This document shows, piece by piece, positions 8,826 to 53,669 of a DNA stretch of 64,000 nucleotides. This stretch comes from Roseateles oligotrophus. Its GTDB lineage: Bacteria; Pseudomonadota; Gammaproteobacteria; Burkholderiales; Burkholderiaceae_C. Position numbers and translations under genes: made by a program. Position 1 is the stretch's first letter. Every line of letters begins with the position of its first letter. The DNA lies in contig NZ_JACHLP010000010.1 in NCBI RefSeq assembly GCF_014204525.1, positions 62,001 through 126,000 of the forward strand, in the 5' to 3' direction. The notes below the pieces were generated by a model. It was not told the DNA's origin. It did not search any database and was given only the letters and a program-made list of their open reading frames with translations.

Positions 8826-10892
8826 TCAAGGCTGCTTATCGTCCTCCTTGGGGCCGATCTGTCCGCCCAGCCTGGCCCGCAAGCTGCCGCCGCGGGCGCT
8901 GCTATCGCCCAGCAGGGGGGCGTAGATGCTGGCATTGGTCAGCACTTTTTTGACGTAGTCGCGGGTCTCGGTGAAGGGGATGTTCTCCACCCAGATGGCG
9001 GCGTCCAGCGTGGCACCCTCGCGCCAGCGCCGTGGCCGTCCAGGCCCGGCGTTATAGGCCGCCGCCGCCATGGCCATGGAGCCGCCGAAATCGTCCAGCA
9101 CCAGCTTCAGATAGTGGGTGCCGATCTTGATATTGAAGTCGCGGTCCGTCATCAGCTCGGGGCGGAAGTCCAGGCCTATCTTCTTGGCCGTCCAGCGCGC
9201 CGTGGCCGGCATCACCTGCATCAGGCCCGAGGCGCCCACATGGGAGCGGGCGTCCATCACAAAGCGCGACTCCTGGCGGATCAGGCCGAAGACGTAGGCG
9301 GGGTCGATGCCGGCCTCGCGCGACTTGGCCAGCAGCTCGCGCGCATGCGGGGCGGGGTAGCGCTGGCTCAGATCGAACTCGCCGCGGGCGCGCTCGCTGG
9401 TGTTGATGCAGCGGTCCCAGATCTCGCGCTCGCAAGCCTCTTGCGCGGCGGCGCGCAGGCTGCGGTCGTTCAGGCCGCGCAGGCTGTAATTCCATTCGCG
9501 CACGCCCTCGTTGCGCAGGCCGCGGTCTATCAGCAGCAGGGCGCGCTTGAGGCCGGCATGGCCTTGCGCCTGGCCGCGCTCGGCCGGGCTGAGCGGGCTG
9601 GGTGCGGCGGGCAGGGCGGGCTTCTCGCCCAGATCTTCGGCGGCCAGGCGGCCGTAAAAAGTCCAGGGCGAGGCCAGGGCTTGCAGCAGGCCGCGGGCTT
9701 CCGCGCGCAGGGCCTCTCCGCTGGCACCGTCGGCCGCGGTGGCCAGCAGGGCGCGGGCGCGCCAGTACTGCCAGCTGGGATCGCGCTGCTCGGCCGCCGT
9801 CATCAGCTCCATGCTTTTGAGCGCCTGGGGCCAGCGTCCGCTGCGCAGGGCCGCGCGGGTGGACCAGGCCAGGGTGTCGTCGCTCCAACTCAGGGACTGC
9901 TTGTTTTTCTCCGCCAGCTTGAGGGCGCGCTCGAAGTAGTCGGCCGCCTCGGGGCCGAGCTTTTGCGCGGCCTGACGGCCGATCTGGGCCCAGGCCCAGG
10001 CGTCCAGCTCGCCGGGCAGCTCGCGTTGCCAGCGGCTGCTCATCAGCTCGGCGGCCACGGCGGGGTCGCCCGCGGCCACACGCATCAGGGCCAGCGTGGC
10101 TAACTCGGTATGTGTGCGCGCGCCGCCCTTGGCCTTGCGGGCGAGGTAGCGGGCCGGGTTGTCCTGGATCTCGGCCAGGGCCAGCTCCACCGGCTTGCCC
10201 AGCAGGGCGGCGGCCTGCCTGGCCGCGCGCGACTTGTTGGCCTCCACCGCCAGGCGCAGCTTGAGCCAGGCGTCGGCGCTGTTCAACTGCTTGGCTTCGT
10301 ACAGCGTGGTGGCGAGCAGATGGCAGCCGTCGTCGCCGTCGCGCTGGGCCAGCCAGGCGCTGCGGGCGGCGTCCAGCACCTTGCGGCCGGCCAGATGCTC
10401 GGTCAGCAGGCCGTAGCAGGCGACCTCGCGGTCGTCGCGCATCTGGAAACGCGGGTAGTCGGCGGCAAAGTTGGGCCAGTCGCGCCGGCGGCCCAGCTCC
10501 AGCAGCCAGTCATTGCGCAGGCGGTCTTCCACATAGCTGCCGGGCCAGCGGCCGTAGAAGGCCTCCAGCTCGGGCTGTGTGGCTTCGTTCAGGCGCAGGC
10601 CGAGCTGCCAATAGTCCATCCAGGGCGCCAGCGGGTGGGCTTGCTCGATGGCGGCGCTGGCCGCGGCGGCGGCGCGCTTTTTGTCCTTGAGGCGCAGGGC
10701 CTCCTGGGCCTCGGCCAGCAGGGGGTCAGGTTTTGCCTGCCCGCTGCCGGCCGCGTTCTGCGCCTGGCAGAGGGGCAGGCTGCCCAGGCCCAGCGTCAAC
10801 GAAAGCGCCAGCATCAAGGCCGCGGGCTTCAGGGCTTTGCGCAGCCAGGGGCGTGATTCATATACTGCCAAAACTCGTTCCTCAAAGGTCAA
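8826..10892 (-). CDS. Soluble lytic murein transglycosylase (Slt70 type)
   Basis: This periplasmic enzyme cleaves the MurNAc-GlcNAc bond of peptidoglycan to give 1,6-anhydro-muropeptides. It has a signal segment (ALMLALSLTLGLGSLPLCQA), a long alpha-superhelical region (about 50-510) and a C-terminal goose-lysozyme-like domain: YVFGLIRQESRF with the catalytic Glu, SHVGASGLMQVMPATA, YLKLVLDDFGGSMAMAAAAYNAGPGR and ENIPFTETRDYVKKV. The listed start is a TTG at 10892. A second TTG at 10871, six nt after GAGGAA, is a strong rival and would remove seven residues. Start codons of this gene and the divergent 5-FCL gene lie almost back to back, so each promoter must sit inside the other gene. Confidence 0.95.
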   Translation of the reverse strand: MTFEERVLAVYESRPWLRKALKPAALMLALSLTLGLGSLPLCQAQNAAGSGQAKPDPLLAEAQEALRLKDKKRAAAAASAAIEQAHPLAPWMDYWQLGLRLNEATQPELEAFYGRWPGSYVEDRLRNDWLLELGRRRDWPNFAADYPRFQMRDDREVACYGLLTEHLAGRKVLDAARSAWLAQRDGDDGCHLLATTLYEAKQLNSADAWLKLRLAVEANKSRAARQAAALLGKPVELALAEIQDNPARYLARKAKGGARTHTELATLALMRVAAGDPAVAAELMSSRWQRELPGELDAWAWAQIGRQAAQKLGPEAADYFERALKLAEKNKQSLSWSDDTLAWSTRAALRSGRWPQALKSMELMTAAEQRDPSWQYWRARALLATAADGASGEALRAEARGLLQALASPWTFYGRLAAEDLGEKPALPAAPSPLSPAERGQAQGHAGLKRALLLIDRGLRNEGVREWNYSLRGLNDRSLRAAAQEACEREIWDRCINTSERARGEFDLSQRYPAPHARELLAKSREAGIDPAYVFGLIRQESRFVMDARSHVGASGLMQVMPATARWTAKKIGLDFRPELMTDRDFNIKIGTHYLKLVLDDFGGSMAMAAAAYNAGPGRPRRWREGATLDAAIWVENIPFTETRDYVKKVLTNASIYAPLLGDSSARGGSLRARLGGQIGPKEDDKQP

Positions 10893-14790: not shown

Positions 14791-16626
14791 TCACGCGGCT
14801 TGGCCCGGCGACTCCACATCCACGAACTGCCACCAGTCGCTCCAGAACAGCGGCCGGCGATAGCCCTGCACCCAGGGCTGGGCGATGTCATTGCTGAACA
14901 GATGGGCGACGATTTTGTAGGGCGCGTAGGCCACGGCCAGGCGCTTGGCCTCGCGGAATTGGGCCTCGCGCTCGGGCCCGTCGGGCAAGGCCTCCAGGCG
15001 CTGGTAGAGCGCGTCCAGCTGGGGCAGGGCAAAGCGCGAGACGTTTTGCGAGCCGGCCTGCGGGCCGTTGTAGCGGGCCAGGGCGGCCAGGCCGTCGGGC
15101 ACATCGGACTGCACGGCAAAACCCCAGACCATCAGCTTGCCGGCCCGGGCCGATTTCAGATGCTCGGGGAATTTGGCGGTGATGAACTTCACCCGCAGGC
15201 CCAGGCGCTGCAGATTGATGCGCCATAACTCATCACTCTGGCGGGCTGCCTGGTCCGGCGTGGTGGCGATTTCTATGCTCAGGCTGGCGCCGTCGGGCTG
15301 CAGGCGGTAGCCCTCGGCATCGCGCCCGCCCCAGCCGTAGGCGTCCAGCAAGGCGTTGGCGCGCTGCGGGTCGAACTCGCCCATCTCGCTGCGGAAGGCC
15401 GGCTCATAGCCGCTGGTGTGAGGCACGATGGGGCTTTGCGCGGGGATGCCCTGGCCGCGCCGCAGCAAGGCGATATTGCGGCCTACGTCGTAGCCCAGCG
15501 AGATGGCGCGACGCAGGGCGATGCGCTCCGGGCTCAGCCCGCCCACCACCGGGTGGGTCATGCCGAAGTAGATCAGCGAGCAATCGGCATTGAGCTGGCG
15601 GAACAGCCGCATGCCGCGCTTGGCCAGAAAGGGCGCCAGGTGGCCACGCGGCGCGGCCTGGCTGATGAAGGGCGGAGGCACGCCGTCGCCCGGCGCGGCG
15701 AGGAGGTCCAGCTGGCCGTTCAGAAAGGACAGCCAGCGCGGCTGGTCTTCCTCGATGATGGCGATCTCCACCCGCTCCACCATGGGCAGCAGACGGCCCT
15801 GGAAGCGCTGGAGCAAGGCCTGGCCCTCGGCGTCGTCGGCGGCCGGCGTGACCTCGTAACGCCGTTCTCGATAGACCGGGTTTTTCTCGAGCACGATGCG
15901 CGAGCTGCGCCGCCACTCGGCCAGGCGGTAGGGACCGGTGCCCACGGGGTGGGCGTCCACATCCCGGCCATAGGCCTCCACCACCTCGCGCGCCAGGGCG
16001 CCGAAGATATCGCTGCTGGCCAGGCGCTCCAGCAGGCGCGGGCGGGGCTCGGCCAGGCGGATCTGCAAGGTGTGGCGGTCCAGGGCGCGCAGGCCGGGGA
16101 TCTCGCGGTTGTAGTCGAAGGGGCGGCCGCTGGCCAGGGCTTCTTCGCGCAGCTCGTTCAGGCCGAGCATATTTGCCGTTAGCAAGAAGGGCAGCATGGG
16201 CGACATATTCGCCGGGTCGACGATGCGCTTGAAGCTGTAGACATAGTCGGCCGCCACCAGCTCACGGGCTTGGCCTTTGAAGGCCGGGTCGGGCGCGAAC
16301 AAGATGCCGGGCCGCAGGCGGATGGTGAAGGTCTTGAAGTCGGCGCTGGTCTCGGGCAGGGCGGCGGCCGTCAGCGGCTTGATCAAGACCGGCCGGGCCA
16401 GGTGGTCGTAGCAGTACAAGGCCTCGAAGATATGGCCGGTGACGGCGCGCGAATAGCCGTCGGAGATGCGGGCCGGGTCGAAGCCGGTCTCGGCCGCCTT
16501 GAAGGCCAGGCGCAGGGTTTTGGGGCCTTGCTGGGCCTGGCTGAGCTGGGGTCTGGCCAGCAGGGGGAGGGCTAGGCCGGCGCCTAGCAACTGGCGGCGG
16601 TTCAAGGGGCTTTTTTCGTTGTTCAT
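14791..16626 (-). CDS. ABC transporter substrate-binding protein, family 5
   Basis: This 611-residue periplasmic protein of the peptide/nickel-binding SBP_bac_5 family has a twin-Arg-style N-terminus (NRRQLLGAGLALPLLA). Family stretches are LRLAFKAAETGFDP, VTGHIFEALYCYDHLARP, FTIRLRPGILFAPDPAFKGQ, ELVAADYVYSFKRIVDP, YGRDVDAHPVGTGPYRL, RLFRQLNADCSLIYFGMTHP and RRAISLGYDVG. It probably delivers oligopeptides to an ABC importer, but no permease genes lie nearby. It is the last gene before the giant inverted repeat, which starts about 100 bp upstream of its start codon. Confidence 0.92.
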   Translation of the reverse strand: MNNEKSPLNRRQLLGAGLALPLLARPQLSQAQQGPKTLRLAFKAAETGFDPARISDGYSRAVTGHIFEALYCYDHLARPVLIKPLTAAALPETSADFKTFTIRLRPGILFAPDPAFKGQARELVAADYVYSFKRIVDPANMSPMLPFLLTANMLGLNELREEALASGRPFDYNREIPGLRALDRHTLQIRLAEPRPRLLERLASSDIFGALAREVVEAYGRDVDAHPVGTGPYRLAEWRRSSRIVLEKNPVYRERRYEVTPAADDAEGQALLQRFQGRLLPMVERVEIAIIEEDQPRWLSFLNGQLDLLAAPGDGVPPPFISQAAPRGHLAPFLAKRGMRLFRQLNADCSLIYFGMTHPVVGGLSPERIALRRAISLGYDVGRNIALLRRGQGIPAQSPIVPHTSGYEPAFRSEMGEFDPQRANALLDAYGWGGRDAEGYRLQPDGASLSIEIATTPDQAARQSDELWRINLQRLGLRVKFITAKFPEHLKSARAGKLMVWGFAVQSDVPDGLAALARYNGPQAGSQNVSRFALPQLDALYQRLEALPDGPEREAQFREAKRLAVAYAPYKIVAHLFSNDIAQPWVQGYRRPLFWSDWWQFVDVESPGQAA

Positions 16627-16719
16627 GCCTTAGGACTGTGCGAGTACTTTGCGGAGTTTGGCCTGGCGGCGCATGGCGCCGTGTCCCTCTTGTATTGTTT
16701 GACGGCCCAGCGGGGATTT

Positions 16720-17285
16720 CGCCCCCGCAGGCGACTTACTTTTCTTGCGTCGCCAAGAAAAGTAAGCAAAAGAAGGCGACCCGACGCCTGGCCCCTTCGG
16801 GGTGCGTTGCGGTGCTCAGGTTTACCGGGCCGCGCCCAACTCACTGCGCTACGCTCCGTTCAGACAGGGGGCGCGAGTCAGTCAACGAAGTCGCTTCGCG
16901 ACGCCCAGCAAACCTTCCGCTCCTCACCCAGGCTCGACGGGACTGAACCCCGACACGCCTCGCTTCGCATCGGCTTGAAGGGCTGCGCGCAAGCGCGCAG
17001 CGGATGTTGGTATTTGACCGAGGCGACGCGCAGCGAGCCGAGTGGTTTTGGCATTCCCCGTTTTGCCTGGGCGAGGCGCGCAGAATTCGGCGGGCGTCGC
17101 GCAGCGACTTCGTGATCTGACTTCGCGCCCCCTGTTTGAACGGAGCGTAGCGCAGTGAGTTGGGCGCGGCCCGGCGAATTCGAGCACAGAGCGGACCCCG
17201 AAGGGGCCAGGCATTCGGGGCGGTTTCTTTGCCTTCTTTCTTGGGCGTCCAAGAAAGAAGGTCGCCCGCCGGGGCGAACTCCCGG
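16720..17285. repeat. Giant imperfect inverted repeat (about 270-bp arms)
   Basis: The 700-bp gap between two genes is almost filled by a palindrome centred near 16991. Best-matching arm segments: 16786-16803 against 17195-17212 (18 of 18) and 16825-16876 against 17123-17174 (51 of 52). The centre is itself a hairpin, GCTGCGCGC (16982-16990) / GCGCGCAGC (16993-17001). Each arm also carries its own hairpin: ACTTTTCTTG...CAAGAAAAGT at 16739-16764 and CCTTCTTTCTTGG...CCAAGAAAGAAGG at 17231-17260. Arg/Ser/Pro-rich open frames appear on both strands but are by-products of the repeat. No transposase is present. Confidence 0.85.
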
Positions 17286-17350
17286 CTGGGCCTTGGCAAA
17301 GGGAGAAGCTCCGACAACAGTTCAGACAAGAATAAAGCTTCCACTGACCG

Positions 17351-18166
17351 TCACTTTTTCTGCGTCGGGATCCACGCCTGGTACTCGCCCCACAGCTTTT
17401 TCACATCACCGCCGCCGGCACAGGCGCCGATGGCGTTTTCCCAGCTCCAGGGGAATTTGCTGCCGGGCTTGGCCGTGGCGTTGAAACAGGGGCCGAAGTC
17501 CCGATAGCCTTTTTGCTCGACCAGATAGGCAAAGAAGAAGGCGCCGGTCTTGTAGGGGGCGGTATAGCTGCCGCCCACTTTGCGGTCCTTGGCATAGCCG
17601 AAGCCGGCCTGGTAGCGCACCAGATCGGCCAGGCTCTCCAGCGCCGCCGGGTGCATGCCCTCGTAGTGCTGGTAGGCATGCACCATCTCGTGGAAGAGGA
17701 TGCCCTTGACCTCATCGGCCATATTGCCGCCCTTGGCCGCGTACTGCTGCAACCAACGGGTGTTGACGTTGACGATGATGCGCTCGGGCGGATCGCCGGC
17801 CTTCCAGGCAATGCCGTCTCTGGCCTCCTCGCTGCCCTTCTCGCCATTCCACTCGCGGATGCGCAGCTCCAGGGTCTGGAAGGCGGGCACATCGGCCGGG
17901 CTTTTGTAGAGGCGCTGCACCACGCCGCGCGCGATCTCGTGCACATAGCTGTTGATGTCGGGCACCAGGGCGGCAAAGGCCTGGGCGCCGGCGGAGCCAT
18001 CGTTCTTGTAGTCCACCACAGGCGAGGCGACGCGGGCCCAGCCGGCGTCCTCGGCCGCGACCGTGGCCGAGAGCTGGGGCGCGGCCGGCAAGGCCTTGGC
18101 CTTGGGGGCGGCAGATGCCGCGGCGCAGGCCAGCAGCAGGGGGGTGAGAAGGCAGTGTGATTTCAT
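17351..18166 (-). CDS. Secreted BSP-family metallopeptidase (PF04450-like), short form
   Basis: This is a 271-residue exported protein of the plant/bacterial basic secretory protein peptidase family. A signal peptide (LLTPLLLACAAASAA) precedes one BSP domain (about 50-260): YKNDGSAGAQAFAALVPDIN, LELRIREWNG, AWKAGDPPERIIVNVNTRWL, then HEMVH (H159, E160, H163) in GILFHEMVHAYQHYEG and a downstream SLADLVRYQAG supplying a conserved Asp. HExxH implies zinc. It starts 12 bp after the TonB receptor on the same strand, so the two form one operon. A longer relative with the same catalytic core is at 27610-29385. Substrate is unknown; protein or glycoprotein is inferred. Confidence 0.9.
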   Translation of the reverse strand: MKSHCLLTPLLLACAAASAAPKAKALPAAPQLSATVAAEDAGWARVASPVVDYKNDGSAGAQAFAALVPDINSYVHEIARGVVQRLYKSPADVPAFQTLELRIREWNGEKGSEEARDGIAWKAGDPPERIIVNVNTRWLQQYAAKGGNMADEVKGILFHEMVHAYQHYEGMHPAALESLADLVRYQAGFGYAKDRKVGGSYTAPYKTGAFFFAYLVEQKGYRDFGPCFNATAKPGSKFPWSWENAIGACAGGGDVKKLWGEYQAWIPTQKK

Positions 18167-18178
18167 CGTTATGGGCTT

Positions 18179-20932
18179 TCAGTAACGGTATTTGGCCGAG
18201 ACTTGCAGATAGCGGCCCATGGCGCTGTGCAGGCCGCCAAAGATGTGCGAGCCGGAGTCCGCCACATTGAAGGGCGGCACGGCGTTCAGCAGATTGTCGA
18301 CATTGAGCTGCAGGTCCAGGCCCTTGAGCAGGCCTTTGTAGCCCGCGTTCAGATTGATGACCGAGTGCGGCCGGATCTCGCACAGGCTGGCGGGCCGGGG
18401 CGGCGTCTTGTTGGTGGCGATGCTGCAGTTGTCCTCGCGGCTGGTGGAGAAGAAGCCCCCCACCGTGTTGCGGCTCAGGCCCAGGCTCAGCGGCCCCTGT
18501 TCCCAGCGCAGGCCCAGGGTGTGGCGCAGGCGCGGCGTGGCGTCAAAGCCGGCATAGCTATAGGGCGCTTGCTCGGGGTCGTACTGGAACTCGATATGGG
18601 CGAGATAGCTGCCGCTGAAGTCGGCCGAGAAGCGGCCCCACTCGGCCGTGCGCCAGACCTTGTGGATCTCGAAGTCCAGGCCGTCCGTCATGGTGCTGGT
18701 GGCATTGCGCTTGATGGCCTGGATCAGGGTGATGGGGCCGGCGCTGAAGGAGGCTGGATCGCCCGGCTGCCTGGGGCCGCGAACCACGGCGTCGGGGTAG
18801 CGCTCCGGGTGGTCCACCAGGGTTTGCGGATCGGGGTCGCCGATTTCGTTGAAACGTTGGAAGCGCCAGTAGTCCAGGCCGAAGCTCAGGTCCTTGATGG
18901 GCTCGGCCATAAAGCCCAGGAAGTAACCCTTGGACTGCTCGGGCTTGAGGGCCGGATTGCCGCCGGTGCGGATCTCGACGCCGGTGCCGCAGTCATTGCC
19001 ATCGCAGCGCTTGGGATCGTTCACATTGACGTAGCCGCCGCTCGTGATGGGCGCGACCTCCAGCACATTCGGGGCGCGGAAGCCTTCGGCATAGGAGCTG
19101 CGCAGCAGCAGCTCCTTGGTGGGGCGCCACAGCAGGGCCAGCTTGGGCTTGCTGACGCCGCCGACATCGCTGTAGTGGTCGTGCCGCAAGGCCACTTGTG
19201 CCTCCAGGGTCTTGTGCAGGGGGACGGACAGTTCGCCGTAGACGGCGCTGACGCGGCGGCCCACATCCCAGCCGCCGGACTGGCCGGTGATGCCCAGGAT
19301 GGCGCCGCTGCTGGCCAGCGGGCTGAGCGCGGAGAAATAACTTTCATTGCGGGTCTCGGCGCCCACGGCCAGGCCCACATCGCCCGTGGGCAGGCGGAAC
19401 AGATCGGGCTTGCTGGCGCGGAAATCGGCCACCGTCAGCGTGGTCTTGAATTTGTCCGTCGTGCCGGCCAGCAAGGAGGCGAGCAGCTCCGGCGAGTTGG
19501 GGCCGCCGAAGCGGTATTTGCCCGTGGCGATGGCCTCGAACACCGGCGCCTTCAGCAGCTCGCCGCGACGCGTGGCGTCGGCCGTCTGCACCTGGTGGTT
19601 GAGGGCGGCTTCCCAGTCCCAGCCCTGGAACCTGCCCTTCAGGCCGGCGATGGCATTGGCCGATTGGCTGACGGTGTGCGAGCCGGTGCCGCCGGTGTCC
19701 TGGAACATATAGGTGATGTCGGCGCGCACGATATTGGCGAGGCTGGCGCCGGGCGGCAGCATGGCCTGGGTCGGGTACTGCGGGTGGCTGGGCAGCAGGA
19801 TGGGGTCGGGGTGCAGATAGGGGCCGAAGGGCTGGCCGATGCCGATGGAGTTGGTGGTATTGCGCAGCAGGCTCAGGCGCGCAAAGGCCTCGGTCTCGGC
19901 ATTGAGGGCCAGGGTCGCGCCGCTATTGAAGGCCAGGCGTTGCGAGTCGGCACCGGCCTGCGTCTGGGTGGTCTTGAATTCATCGTGCCAGCACACCAGG
20001 CCACCGTAGGAGGCGGCGGGATGGGCGCCCAACATCTCGGGGGCGCAGGCCTTGTCCAGCGGCACGATGAAGCGCGAGGCCGTGCGGCCGGTGGCGGGGT
20101 CCAGAAAGGGCTTGTCCAGGGTGATCTGCAGATTGCCGGCCGGGCTGTAGCGGCTGCGATCATCCTGCCAGCCCCAGGGCCGGGTGTCGCGATTGCCCAC
20201 ATAGCTGTCGCTGCGCTTGCCCTGGAAGTAAGGGTCGCGCTGGATCAGCTCCAGATTGCCCCAGAGGTTGTAGCGATCACGCGCCACATCGCCCATGCCG
20301 GCCGTCAAGGCCAGCGTGCGGCGACCGGCGTCGCCGTATTTGGAGCGGCCGGCCGAGGCATTGAGCTCCAGGCCGCTGAACTCCTTGCGCAGGATGATGT
20401 TGACGACGCCGGCAATCGCGTCCGAGCCGTAGATGGCGGAGGCGCCGTCCTTGATGATGTCGACCCGGTCGATCACGCTGACCGGGATGCTGTTGAGGTC
20501 GCCGAAGAAGGCGGCACCGGCGGCGCGCGGGTAGGCGGCCAGGCGCCGCCCGTTGACCAGCAGCAAGGTGGACTGCTCGCCCAGATTGCGCATATTCAGG
20601 GCCTGCGCGCCGGGCGTGTAGGTGCCCAGCGAGTTCTCGTTGATATTGCTGGCGCCATTGGACGTGAGGTTGCGCAGCAGATCGCCGATGGACGTGGCGC
20701 CGCTGGCCTCGATGTCCTTGCGCGTCATCACCTCGATGGGCGAGGTGGTCTCGGCGTCCAGGCGGCGAATGCGGCTGCCGCTCACCTCCACCCGTTTGAG
20801 CACGGCGTCGGGTTTGGCGTCTTCCTTGTCGGGGCCTTGGGGCTTGGCCTCTTGCGCCAGGGCCGGGAGGGGGGCGCCGCCCATCATGAGGCCGAGCAAG
20901 GCGGCGGCCACGGCCGTCTGAGTCTTCTTCAT
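18179..20932 (-). CDS. TonB-dependent receptor (first of a divergent pair)
   Basis: This 917-residue outer-membrane active importer has a signal peptide (MKKTQTAVAAALLGLMMGGA...ALAQ), a TonB-box-like RVEVSGSRI, the plug domain (about 60-185: TTSPIEVMTRKDIEASGATSIGDLL, LLLVNGRRLAAYPR, IDRVDIIKDGASAIYGSDAIAGVVNIIL) and a 22-strand barrel ending in the aromatic QVSAKYRY. LRSSYAEGFRAPNVLEV and NPALKPEQSKGYFLG are typical barrel motifs. A clear AGGAGA lies 9 nt before the ATG. The plug resembles receptors for large sugars and peptides rather than siderophores. It is cotranscribed with the BSP peptidase that follows it. Confidence 0.95.
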   Translation of the reverse strand: MKKTQTAVAAALLGLMMGGAPLPALAQEAKPQGPDKEDAKPDAVLKRVEVSGSRIRRLDAETTSPIEVMTRKDIEASGATSIGDLLRNLTSNGASNINENSLGTYTPGAQALNMRNLGEQSTLLLVNGRRLAAYPRAAGAAFFGDLNSIPVSVIDRVDIIKDGASAIYGSDAIAGVVNIILRKEFSGLELNASAGRSKYGDAGRRTLALTAGMGDVARDRYNLWGNLELIQRDPYFQGKRSDSYVGNRDTRPWGWQDDRSRYSPAGNLQITLDKPFLDPATGRTASRFIVPLDKACAPEMLGAHPAASYGGLVCWHDEFKTTQTQAGADSQRLAFNSGATLALNAETEAFARLSLLRNTTNSIGIGQPFGPYLHPDPILLPSHPQYPTQAMLPPGASLANIVRADITYMFQDTGGTGSHTVSQSANAIAGLKGRFQGWDWEAALNHQVQTADATRRGELLKAPVFEAIATGKYRFGGPNSPELLASLLAGTTDKFKTTLTVADFRASKPDLFRLPTGDVGLAVGAETRNESYFSALSPLASSGAILGITGQSGGWDVGRRVSAVYGELSVPLHKTLEAQVALRHDHYSDVGGVSKPKLALLWRPTKELLLRSSYAEGFRAPNVLEVAPITSGGYVNVNDPKRCDGNDCGTGVEIRTGGNPALKPEQSKGYFLGFMAEPIKDLSFGLDYWRFQRFNEIGDPDPQTLVDHPERYPDAVVRGPRQPGDPASFSAGPITLIQAIKRNATSTMTDGLDFEIHKVWRTAEWGRFSADFSGSYLAHIEFQYDPEQAPYSYAGFDATPRLRHTLGLRWEQGPLSLGLSRNTVGGFFSTSREDNCSIATNKTPPRPASLCEIRPHSVINLNAGYKGLLKGLDLQLNVDNLLNAVPPFNVADSGSHIFGGLHSAMGRYLQVSAKYRY

Positions 20933-27609: not shown

Positions 27610-29385
27610 TTGGCTAACTTTATATTCAAACGTCATATTGGGCCCGCCTGGGCACTCGCGCTATTGACGAGCGCAGGCGCGCAAGCGCAGCAAGCCACGG
27701 CTACGCCCAGTCCGGCCGATCTGGGTTTGCTGCAAGCCCATGCGCCGGGCTGCAGTGCCGCCCAGGTGAAGGCGCGCCTGGCCTCGGTCAGTGGCAAGCG
27801 TGCCAATGCCCTCAGCCTGGCTCAGGCGCAGGCCCAAGCCTTGAGTGGTCTGCAATGCCAGGCCTCCGCGGCAGCCCCGGCGGCAAGTGCTCGCGGCTTG
27901 CTGGCCCAAGCCAGACCTGCGCTCGCGGCCGCTGCTGTCGCTGCGCCTGCGGACTTGAGCGCCCCCATCGCCGCGCAGATCCAGGCCTCGGGCGAGAACC
28001 TGCCGAACGAAGGCAGGGTGCAATTGTTCGACAACAACACCAGCAGCAAATGGCTGACTTTTCAGCCCACCGGCTGGGTGTCCTACAACTTGGGAGCAGG
28101 CAAGAAGGCCAAGCTGAGCAGCTACAGCCTGATCAGCGCCAATGATGAGCCGGGGCGAGACCCGCTGGATTGGCAGTTGCAGGGCTCCAGCGACGGTCAG
28201 AACTGGGCCTTGCTGGACAGCCAGCGAGGCCAGACCTTTGCGGGCCGCCTGCAGCGTCGGGTGTTTGCCGTGGCGAACGCTCCCGCCTATCAGTACTTCC
28301 GCCTCAATATCACCCGCAATAACGGCGCCGCCGAGTTGCAACTGGCCGAGGCCGAGTTGATCGGCAGCCTGGATGCGGCCGGCGACAGCATCACACCGCT
28401 GGCCCTGGGCGTGGCGCAGGGCGGCCTGGCCGATGCCAGCGGCGGCAGCAAGCAGTTCCGCATCGATGTGCCGGTGGGCGGCGCGGCATTGAATGTGACC
28501 CTGAGCGGCGGCAGTGGCGATGCCGATCTGTATCTGCGTTATGGACAGCCGGCCAGCACCAGCAGCTACGACTGCAAGAGCGAGGGCCAGACCAATAACG
28601 AGCAGTGCAGCGTCAACCTCAGCCAGGCGGGGCGCTACTTTGTCCTGCTCAAGGGCTATAGCGCCTACAGCGGCGCCAGCCTGCTGGCCACGCTGGCGCA
28701 AAGCGGGGCCAATTGGTCGGCGGTGAGCTCGCCCAATCTGAGCTTTGTCAACGACGGCTCGCCCGGTGGCAATTTGTTCAATCAACTGGTGCCCGATCCC
28801 ACCGGCTATATCCGCGCGATTGCCCAGAGCGTGGTCAAGACGCTTTACAAGACGCCCGGCGAGGTGCCGGCCTTCGACACCCTGGAGCTGCGCATCGAGC
28901 GCTGGGCCCAGGACCCCACGGGCGTTGCCTGGAAGGCGGGCGACCCGCCGCGCATCACGGTGGCGGTGAATGCCTTTCATCTGGAGCGCATCGCGGCGGC
29001 CGGCGGCAATGTGGCCGAGGAGGTGCGCGGCATCCTCTTCCACGAGATGACGCATGCTTATCAGCATTCGACCGGCATCGACTTGCCCGCCATCGAAGGC
29101 CTGGCCGACACGGTGCGCTATCTGAATGGGTACATCCCCTTGTCGGAGCGGCACTCGGGCGGCAGCTGGACCGACAGCTACAAGACCACGGCCTTCTTCT
29201 TCGCCTGGATTCAGCAGCAAAAGGGTTTTGGCAACTTCACCTATTGCGCCAATCAGCTGGGCAAGCCCGGCACGACCACGCCTTGGAGCTGGGACCGCCT
29301 GACCCAGGTCTGCGCCGGTGGCAGCCCGGTGGCGCCGCTGTGGCAGGAGTACCAGGCCTGGTTGATCGCCAACGGCGTTCGGTGA
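27610..29385 (+). CDS. Secreted three-domain BSP metallopeptidase (F5/8C-like, PPC, BSP)
   Basis: This is a 591-residue exported protein. A TTG start at 27610 is chosen for GGAGA six nt upstream. Signal peptide WALALLTSAGAQAQ; a low-complexity Ala-rich spacer; a discoidin/F5-8C-like carbohydrate-binding domain (about 118-255: SSKWLTFQPTGWVSYNLG, DWQLQGSSDGQNW, YFRLNITRNNGAAELQLAEAEL); a PPC pre-peptidase domain (about 258-365: LNVTLSGGSGDADLYLRYG, GRYFVLLKGYSAYSG); then the BSP domain with HEMTH (H478-H482) in GILFHEMTHAYQHSTG and the downstream GLADTVRYLNG. The catalytic part closely resembles the short form at 17351-18166. A lectin-like domain on a peptidase next to an alpha-mannosidase suggests glycoprotein substrates. 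Confidence 0.92.
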   Translation: MANFIFKRHIGPAWALALLTSAGAQAQQATATPSPADLGLLQAHAPGCSAAQVKARLASVSGKRANALSLAQAQAQALSGLQCQASAAAPAASARGLLAQARPALAAAAVAAPADLSAPIAAQIQASGENLPNEGRVQLFDNNTSSKWLTFQPTGWVSYNLGAGKKAKLSSYSLISANDEPGRDPLDWQLQGSSDGQNWALLDSQRGQTFAGRLQRRVFAVANAPAYQYFRLNITRNNGAAELQLAEAELIGSLDAAGDSITPLALGVAQGGLADASGGSKQFRIDVPVGGAALNVTLSGGSGDADLYLRYGQPASTSSYDCKSEGQTNNEQCSVNLSQAGRYFVLLKGYSAYSGASLLATLAQSGANWSAVSSPNLSFVNDGSPGGNLFNQLVPDPTGYIRAIAQSVVKTLYKTPGEVPAFDTLELRIERWAQDPTGVAWKAGDPPRITVAVNAFHLERIAAAGGNVAEEVRGILFHEMTHAYQHSTGIDLPAIEGLADTVRYLNGYIPLSERHSGGSWTDSYKTTAFFFAWIQQQKGFGNFTYCANQLGKPGTTTPWSWDRLTQVCAGGSPVAPLWQEYQAWLIANGVR

Positions 29386-34685: not shown

Positions 34686-35999
34686 ATGAGCACCACCTAC
34701 CAGCAACACCTGACCCTTCTGCAAACACAGGCCGAGCAGGCCCTGGCGCGTTGCGGCTTCGATGCCCTCTTGATCGCCTCCGGCGTTGAGAAGCTCGCCT
34801 TTCTGGACGACAGGCCCTATCTCTTCGCGCCTAACCCGCATTTCAAGCATTGGCTGCCCCTGGTCAATCACCCGGACAGCTGGTTGCTGATCCGCCCCGG
34901 CCACAAGCCGCGCCTCGTGTACTACCAGCCGGATGATTTCTGGCATGTGCCGCCGGCCGACCCCAGCGGCGAATGGCTGGCGCATGTGGAGCTGGTGCTG
35001 ATCCAGCGTGCCGAGGACGCTGCCGCCCATCTGCAAGTGCCGGGCCGCCTGGCCATCATCGGCGAGGCCGATGCCGCCCTGGCCGGTGTGCTGCCTAACA
35101 ACCCGCCCGAGCTGCTGAACATCCTGCACTACCAGCGCGCCTACAAGACCGAGTACGAGCTGGCGCAGATGCGCGCCGCCTCACGCCGCGCCGTGCCCGC
35201 CCATCTGGCCGCGCGCAAGGCCTTTCTGGCCGGTGCCTCCGAGCTGGACATCCACCGCGCCTATCTGGCCGCCAGCGGCCACACCGACCGCGATCTGCCC
35301 TATACCAATATCGTTGGCCTCAACGAGCATGGCGCCGTTCTGCACTACCAGTACCAGGACGCGCAAGCGCCGGCTGAGTCGCGCTCCCTGCTGATCGATG
35401 CGGGCGCTCAGGTCAACGGTTATGCCTCCGACATCACCCGCACATGGGGCGCCGGCGACGCGAACTTCCAGGCCTTGCTGGACGCGATGGAGCGCGCCCA
35501 GCTGGCCCTGGTGGACGAGGTGCGTGCCGGTGTCGACTACCGCAGCATCCATCTGAGCACCCATGCCAAGGTGGCCGGCATTCTGCAAGAGCTGGGCGTG
35601 GTCAAGCTGAGCGTGGAGGAGCAGCTGGCGCAGCGCGTGACCTCGACCTTCTTCCCCCATGGCATCGGCCATCTGATCGGCCTGCAGGTGCACGATGTGG
35701 GCGGCTTCATGGCCGACGACAGGGGCGCCGTCGCGCCCAAGCCCGAGGGCCACCCCTATCTGCGCCTGACCCGCCCGCTGGCCGCCGGCATGGTGGTGAC
35801 CATAGAGCCCGGGCTTTACTTCATCCCGACCCTGCTGGACAAGCTCAAGGCCACGCCGGCCGCCGCGGCGGTGGACTGGAGCCTGGTCGCCCAGCTCAGC
35901 AAATTCGGCGGCGTGCGCATCGAAGACGATGTCGTCTGCCGCGCCCAGGGTGGTCCCGAGAACATGACGCGGGATGCGTTTGCGGCGCTGGCTTCGTAA
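34686..35999 (+). CDS. pepQ: Xaa-Pro dipeptidase
   Basis: This cytosolic metalloenzyme splits dipeptides with C-terminal proline. The 437-residue protein has the PepQ N-terminal domain (LLIASGVEKLAFLDDRPYLFAPNPHFKHW) and a pita-bread domain with all five metal ligands in context: LLIDAGAQ (Asp), ASDITRTW (Asp), PHGIGHLIGLQVHD (His), VVTIEPGLYF (Glu) and GGVRIEDDVV (Glu). In-frame ATGs at 34671, 34677 and 34686 precede the conserved part; I took the last because homologues begin near there, but none has a good ribosome site. It reads away from the preceding LysR on the same strand, 28 bp downstream. Confidence 0.93.
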   Translation: MSTTYQQHLTLLQTQAEQALARCGFDALLIASGVEKLAFLDDRPYLFAPNPHFKHWLPLVNHPDSWLLIRPGHKPRLVYYQPDDFWHVPPADPSGEWLAHVELVLIQRAEDAAAHLQVPGRLAIIGEADAALAGVLPNNPPELLNILHYQRAYKTEYELAQMRAASRRAVPAHLAARKAFLAGASELDIHRAYLAASGHTDRDLPYTNIVGLNEHGAVLHYQYQDAQAPAESRSLLIDAGAQVNGYASDITRTWGAGDANFQALLDAMERAQLALVDEVRAGVDYRSIHLSTHAKVAGILQELGVVKLSVEEQLAQRVTSTFFPHGIGHLIGLQVHDVGGFMADDRGAVAPKPEGHPYLRLTRPLAAGMVVTIEPGLYFIPTLLDKLKATPAAAAVDWSLVAQLSKFGGVRIEDDVVCRAQGGPENMTRDAFAALAS

Positions 36000-52574: not shown

Positions 52575-53669
52575 GCCTAAGAAGTAGGCCAGCCGCTCGC
52601 TCTCATTCTGCAGCGCGCTCTTGAACGCTGCCTCGCGCGGCGCCTGGCCGGCCTGGTAGCCGCATTGCAGCAGCAGTTGCTGGCCGCCCTCGTCGACCGA
52701 GGCATTGGCCCAGCCCTGCACCTCGCCGCGCCACAGCATGGGCAGGGCGTAATAGCCCAGGCGGCGTTTACTGGGCGGCGTGTAGGCCTCGAAGCGATAG
52801 GCCCAGCCCCAAAAAAGCTCGAAGCGCAGGCGGTCCCAGACGATGGGGTCGAAGGGCGCCAGCAGACGCAGCTCTTCGTCCAGCTGCCAGCGCTTGGCGC
52901 GCGGGTCTTCCCCCTCGGGCCAGTACCAGCGCAGGCCATTCACCTCGGCGCTGGGAAAGAGTTGCTGTGCATGGGCCAGCTACTTTTTGACCTCGGCCTG
53001 CAGCTGCGGGGCGCCGTAGCGCGTCATGCTGCATAACTGGCTGAGGCTGCGGGCCGGCAGCGGCGCGTACTTGGCCAGAATCAGGCGCAGCAGGTCCAGC
53101 GCCTTTTGCTGCGGGCTGCTGTGTTCGTCCTCGGTGTGCTGCACCGCCTCGTAGATGCGCTGCCCCTGTTCGCGGCGCTTGACGCGCAGCAGGCCGCGGT
53201 AGTGCATGGCGTCCAGCAGATGGGTGGTGGCATTGCTGCTGCCGCCCCAGGCATTGCGGGTCTGGCCGAGCTGGAACTGCGCTTGCACGGCCTTGGGGTG
53301 AACCGAGCCTTGCTCCCGCACAAAGGCCTGGATGGCGGCGGCCTGGGCGGCGGTCTTGGTATCCCAGCCGCGGCTGGCGATGCGGGGGTGTAGCAGGCGC
53401 AGATGCTCGCGGGGCACGAAGCCGTAATTGACGAAGCAGTCTTCTTCGATGTTCAGGCGGGCGTAGCGCCGTTCCAGATCGCCGGCGCGGTAGTCCTTGA
53501 CGCGCTGCCTGAGGGTCAGGTCTTGCGCCCGTGCGGGTGCGCGTATCGGGTCGGCCTGCACAAAGCCCAGGCGTTGGATGGCGGCGGGCAGGGTGGTGGG
53601 CTTGAACAGGCTGCGCGCAATCGCGTAGCGGCGCAGCTCGTCCAGCGTTGCGTGGGGCTTGGCGCGCAT
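52557..53669 (-). pseudogene. YcaQ-like winged-helix protein interrupted by an in-frame TAG
   Basis: From ATG 53669 the frame encodes LRRYAIARSLFKPTTLPAAI, LGFVQADPIRAPARAQDLTL, a FVNYGFVPREHLRLLHP segment and winged-helix parts, then meets TAG at 52980-52982 after AEVKK. The same frame goes on with LAHAQQLFPSAEVNGLRWYW, LLAPFDPIVWDRLRFELFWG, YRFEAYTPPSKRRLGYYALP to the TGA at 52557. The second part is the conserved C-terminal end of the HTH_42/YcaQ family (DNA interstrand-crosslink glycosylases), so one gene of about 370 codons has been split. Single-base change or sequencing error. Confidence 0.82.

Follow-up and report, generated by a model that had tools for sequence, protein, structure and literature searches.

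The whole stretch of DNA analysed here (the window, 64,000 nucleotides) carries in one spacer a long palindrome, which we read, with a probability of roughly 0.6, as the cargo-less state of a dispersed palindromic gene-cassette site whose cargo would be exchanged at the centre via recombination between arms. Taken alone, the window copy is an unexceptional repeat-family member. Alignments across genomes demonstrated conserved arms, apparent exchange of cargo, a central border, homogenised arms, hairpins maintained at the DNA level, and gain and loss of whole elements. On these sequence comparisons the palindrome family is unusual and the case for cargo exchange at palindromic sites is a strong one; the evidence for exchange is comparative throughout. 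The palindromic element is widespread and apparently undescribed. That it represents a class-wide, enzyme-less gene-cassette system, with hairpin-capped palindromes as docking sites for accessory and anti-phage genes and the window copy as an empty one, is a more tentative proposal that we place somewhat short of even odds.

The earlier note on this DNA had described a giant inverted repeat of about 560 bp. The palindrome is real, but that length is too short: the part homologous to other copies spans about 16665 to 17310, a degenerate right end reaches about 17346, and the left end is truncated compared to the longest copies. The two halves (16704-16992 and 16993-17292) align with 234 of 276 positions identical (85%) and include one stretch of 18/18 and one of 38+12 split by a single mismatch (51/52), exactly the identities that had been reported. 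The central hairpin and the two arm-internal hairpins are likewise present, at 16982-17001, 16735-16766, and 17232-17261, the latter two being perfect. Folded as DNA, 589 nt of the element gave -265.5 kcal/mol, compared to -135 +/- 5 for dinucleotide shuffles (z -26). The earlier note was also correct that the palindrome contains no gene of its own, the open reading frames inside it being pseudo-ORFs of a repeat family. Rfam returned no match at E<=1 over window positions 15000-19000. The features of the element and its flanks are as follows.

14791..16626, minus strand: flanking gene SBP_bac_5 (oligopeptide-binding-like; Pfam E 1.3e-48), with an orthologue in the nearest relative, G004.
16665..17346, no strand: whole element, cargo-less copy (BLAST extents against 15 other genome copies, and end alignments).
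16667..16681, no strand: outer hairpin CGGCGCATGGCGCCG in the left extension, common to other copies in the same genome.
16704..16981, plus strand: left arm (inverted-repeat alignment; 83-89% identical to left arms of other copies).
16710..16785, plus strand: left arm end, with hairpin 1 at 16710-16728 and hairpin 2 at 16735-16766 (covariance model R1, 94.6 bits, E 4e-19).
16982..17001, no strand: centre hairpin GCTGCGCGC-AA-GCGCGCAGC (from the sequence); by junction mapping, the position of the cargo in cargo-bearing relatives.
17002..17292, minus strand: right arm (inverted-repeat alignment and comparison with other copies).
17214..17286, minus strand: right arm end, with hairpin 2 at 17232-17261 and hairpin 1 at 17268-17286 (covariance model R1, 85.3 bits, E 4e-17).
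17293..17346, plus strand: right extension (alignment with the right end of copy L003), stopping 4 nt short of the next gene's stop codon.
17351..18166, minus strand: flanking gene of the BSP peptidase family (Pfam E 2e-26; G004 orthologue 90% identical).

A second BSP-peptidase-like region, 53% identical to 17351-18166, lies at window positions 28672-29364 within a 638-aa ORF.

The earlier note did not recognise two things: in sister species the element brackets accessory genes, which makes this palindrome its cargo-less form, and the arm ends are hairpins whose pairing is constrained at the DNA level. In these relatives, members of the Paucibacter clade, two such arms face outward around 0.4 to 2.1 kb of low-GC accessory DNA, which places one or a few genes at the palindrome centre. 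All 23 arm pairs lying less than 3 kb apart were outward-facing (model R1; G000, the source genome, and G003, G005, and G006); 8 of these are the cargo-less pairs of the source genome, and cargo was present in 13 of the 15 in the other three. The mean GC content of cargo was 0.520 versus 0.630 for the flanks, and it was lower in 20/20 elements (Wilcoxon p 1.9e-6). With the exception of one orthologous pair, the cargoes are mutually unrelated. Their proteins include Ivy, DUF488, DUF4326, TIR/SEFIR, tautomerase, GNAT, DUF4357, and DUF4440, and PADLOC matches among them include bSEFIR (1e-76), PDC-S14 (1e-105), PDC-S52 (2e-20), and PDC-S35 (3e-12). Two other arrangements were seen. In G003, one cargo-less palindrome has its right arm broken by a gene judged by eye to encode an IS481-like transposase (L082 2594-3739), and in two species full palindromes stand on either side of an apparent methionine-transporter (metNIQ) operon (G015:C9:71409-75770, L076; G008:C1:4805775-4809950, L077).

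The cargo at one locus differs between species. Locus A, flanked by our reading of the ORFs by the bioB side and a biotin-carboxylase gene, holds five unrelated cargoes in five species (L067, L068, L070, L078, and L080), an empty palindrome in the source genome (L005), and, in G004, an arm-free gene of 607 aa (L121 1308-3131). At locus C (L069, L079, and L083/L162) and locus D (L071/L075 versus L073), flanks and arms are kept and the cargo differs between species. Identity along orthologous loci is about 90% in the flanks and 90 to 98% in the arms and then falls to background, with the drop close to the palindrome centre, about 255 nt (locus A) or 310 to 330 nt (loci B-D) into the arm. The last 50 nt of flank is 55 to 80% identical in many comparisons, and the 50 to 100 nt outside the arms are poorly conserved. 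Of the 10 junctions between arm and cargo at locus A, 8 map to within a few nucleotides of CGCATCGG; L078 is divergent. Orthologous arms in loci B-F (0.89) are no closer to each other than to arms at other loci (0.885), suggesting that arms have been exchanged or homogenised. Counting against the preferred reading, three loci in G004 contain a different gene without any arms; for example, the spacer orthologous to L021 holds an unrelated gene, a GFA-like ORF by eye (L120). Gene turnover in these spacers therefore does not require arms.

Two hairpins cap each arm of about 280 nt. In an alignment of 46 arm ends, 41 of them distinct, these hairpins were paired in 98.9% of cells, compared to 40 to 61% in slid controls. 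The compensatory changes comprised 72 double changes, affecting both sides, and no one-sided (G-U) change. The absence of any G-U intermediate points to a constraint at the DNA level: rather than folding as RNA, it may be DNA hairpins that are selected for or restored by templated correction.

We propose that the palindrome would serve as an enzyme-less gene-cassette site, that exchange would start with a break or strand exchange near its centre, and that recombination between near-identical arms of different copies would then swap, insert, or delete cargo. In the lineage of the source genome, whole empty elements may also have spread in a MITE-like manner, ending in TA-GTG...CAC-TA. SbcCD cleavage of the central hairpin was considered as the initiating step and is weakened by a canonical SbcD score below the curated cut-off in 12/12 congeneric genomes. 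A Mre11-family protein (YhaO-like by our reading) is present in at least one relative. REP-like GGGTCAGGTCTTG hairpins at some inner arm ends may be an alternative initiator.

The count of copies in the source genome (5.34 Mb, 30 contigs), proposed in the earlier note, showed that the element is multicopy. Targeted searches recovered 8 near-full palindromes and about 10 partial copies, 75 to 96% identical, a lower bound because two assembly contigs (at the ends of G000:C8 and G000:C6) stop within arm copies. Assembly collapse as the cause is excluded: family copies occupy many distinct loci and recur across many independently assembled genomes, some of them single contigs. L003, L006, and L007, the longest copies at about 815 bp, have GTG...CAC as their ends, with TA adjoining most of these. 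Left arms are closer to the left arms of other copies (86-90%) than to the right arm of the same copy (72%). The two sides form distinct lineages, and the copies have therefore multiplied as whole units. The window site is element-free in G004, where the spacer lies between orthologous flanking genes, and so are the sites of L002, L004, L007, L012, and probably L011, with flanking genes mostly 83-93% identical. At the sites of L020 and L022, the element is present in both genomes. Cargo is absent from all 8 palindromes, the window copy included, which counts against reading them as sites of exchange.

Such a pattern could also arise if arm-cargo-arm were a non-autonomous transposon, bounded by long terminal inverted repeats and mobilised in trans by a putative transposase that favours certain spacers, the differing cargo at each locus reflecting independent insertions. 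This is consistent with the full copies at different loci that are 96% identical (L003 and L006), with a single deletion derivative found at three loci (L020, L022, and L023), and with the element-free orthologous sites. The equal similarity of orthologous and paralogous arms in loci B-F would also be expected from repeated insertion of whole arm-cargo-arm units at hotspots. TA at some termini also points this way, and its restriction to a few copies counts against our own proposal. For L003 and L007, whose termini have TA, no alignment across the junction is obtained with the orthologous empty spacers. Comparison with G004 yielded no exact target duplication, the spacers outside the elements not aligning, so that the search suggested in the earlier note left the terminal TA of the longest copies as the sole end signature. 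However, the arms of locus A retain a weak side-specific vertical signal across species in the mid-arm, and the outer border there is the same in five species, so whole-element transposition would need strict site specificity. In addition, left-end and end-pattern searches of the source genome found no transposase-bearing element with the same ends; only copies of the element itself matched. We therefore regard transposition of whole elements as credible but unlikely, and retain cargo exchange through the arms as the preferred reading.

The arm-end model R1 matched 52 of 150 genomes and 36 of 92 sampled genera of the order, bearing out the earlier note's statement that such repeats are common in Burkholderiales, and 63 of 274 genomes and 55 of 222 genera of the class. 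Other families also have arm pairs that enclose low-GC cargo genes (L153, L154, and L155), and 7 of 8 further loci there are low in GC (0.39-0.53 versus 0.47-0.64), L238 being the exception. Same-orientation and inward neighbours exist too (G180, G445, L224, and L160). No arm match was found in phage records, and plasmid records gave only three, partial matches. Elsewhere in the order and class many copies are empty, and in another genus (G341/G451) orthologous palindromes are present but mostly empty, which does not favour cargo exchange. These empty copies would be expected if the arms were structured 3' or terminator-like sequences with no role in cargo, and palindromes and foreign genes simply gathered together in tolerant spacers. 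Cargo without arms at some orthologous sites is in line with this, as are the 80% and 86% relatives that the L084 cargo has in assemblies of Sulfuricella and Sulfuriferula, which adjoin an arm palindrome from outside, about 95 nt downstream of each, and not from inside. Against such coincidence, the two halves of one palindrome lie symmetrically on either side of the cargo and the inner border is sharp, the close arm pairs are uniformly outward-facing, and the inward pair L160 encloses normal-GC core genes. We consider it improbable.

That the arms are REP/TIR elements of RAYT (TIRYT) tyrosine transposases is very improbable. The GGGTCAGGTCTTG hairpins at the inner arm ends of several loci also flank resident RAYT genes, and the motif fits the GGGGWSAS TIR consensus of PMC3733652. 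However, the arm hairpins are unlike GGGTCAGGTCTTG, the motif is absent from the window copy and from locus A cargo, and the RAYT loci examined carry GGGTCAGGTCTTG and no arm end; RAYT is thus not supported as the mobiliser of the arms. RAYT (PF01797) genes are present in nearly all congeneric genomes, with GGGTCAGGTCTTG beside many of them (e.g., G000:C6:396729-397058, L092). Since the motif flanks many RAYT genes, with three copies on each side at locus L104, this RAYT group probably has it as its REP/TIR. Within the window, GGGTCAGGTCTTG occurs at 53513-53525 and, with one mismatch, at 10723-10735 and 34704-34716 (3 versus 0.09 expected).

Placement of integron gene cassettes at secondary sites by the resident integron integrase is scarcely credible: IntI is present in 10/11 same-genus genomes searched (TIGR02249 over cut-off) and the cargo families are like those carried by integrons, but the arms are inverted rather than direct and far longer than attC, and we rejected integron cargo on finding no attC candidate in or near 27 elements with a scan that recovers attC in the G004 integron region. 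That genome has one attC-like site (L248 9603-9659). No attC array was detected near the integron integrase gene of the source genome (G000:C5:345419-346363, L245), and in G006 an arm-end hairpin (C53:446551-446670) adjoins an integron integrase gene (446698-447642).

If the role in exchange is true, long palindromes in bacterial spacers would be a common landing site for single accessory genes rather than junk, and such sites, including ones for phage-defence genes, would occur in about a quarter of the class genera sampled. This would explain annotated Arg/Ser-rich pseudo-ORFs, provide a sequence model for discovering new defence genes by searching between arms, and make the persistence of long palindromes testable. 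A search of the open-access literature yielded no account of exchangeable genes enclosed by inverted arms with hairpin caps.

Several known systems resemble the element in part. The R-family intergenic repeats of Pseudomonas fluorescens are dispersed and several have internal inverted repeats; compared by description, they differ in their length of 50 to 352 nt and in that the portions of that account consulted report no gene cargo (PMC2718517). REP/REPIN elements and the TIRtrons of RAYT/TIRYT (PMC3733652) also show hairpins, inverted pairs, intergenic location, and high copy number, the likeness to TIRtrons lying only in the TIR-like motif at the inner arm end of some loci. In contrast to these, the present arms are ten times longer, have unrelated hairpin sequence, bracket unrelated cargo genes, and were not found in the RAYT loci examined. 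Integron cassettes share the exchange of single accessory genes at a dedicated site, folded DNA sites, and similar cargo families. An integrase gene is present in the genome, but here there is no attC with the cargo and no linked integrase, the flanks are inverted rather than direct, and single-cargo sites are dispersed. MITEs and MITE-like carriers (Correia elements, mobile insertion cassettes, and TIMEs) are similarly non-coding, dispersed between genes, and bounded by terminal inverted repeats, and may hold passenger genes; the window element has such repeats and no coding capacity, and TA stands at the ends of the longest copies. Here, however, arms of about 280 nt make up the whole element when it is empty, cargo at one fixed locus varies between species, and no transposase-bearing element with common ends was found in the source genome. 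Neisserial minimal mobile elements are different genes found between the same conserved flanking genes, for which exchange by homologous recombination has been proposed; to our knowledge they have no dedicated inverted arms. Loci A, C, and D similarly hold alternative genes between conserved flanks. In contrast to the minimal mobile elements, long hairpin-capped inverted arms bracket the cargo examined here, and these arms would act as portable homology at many loci.
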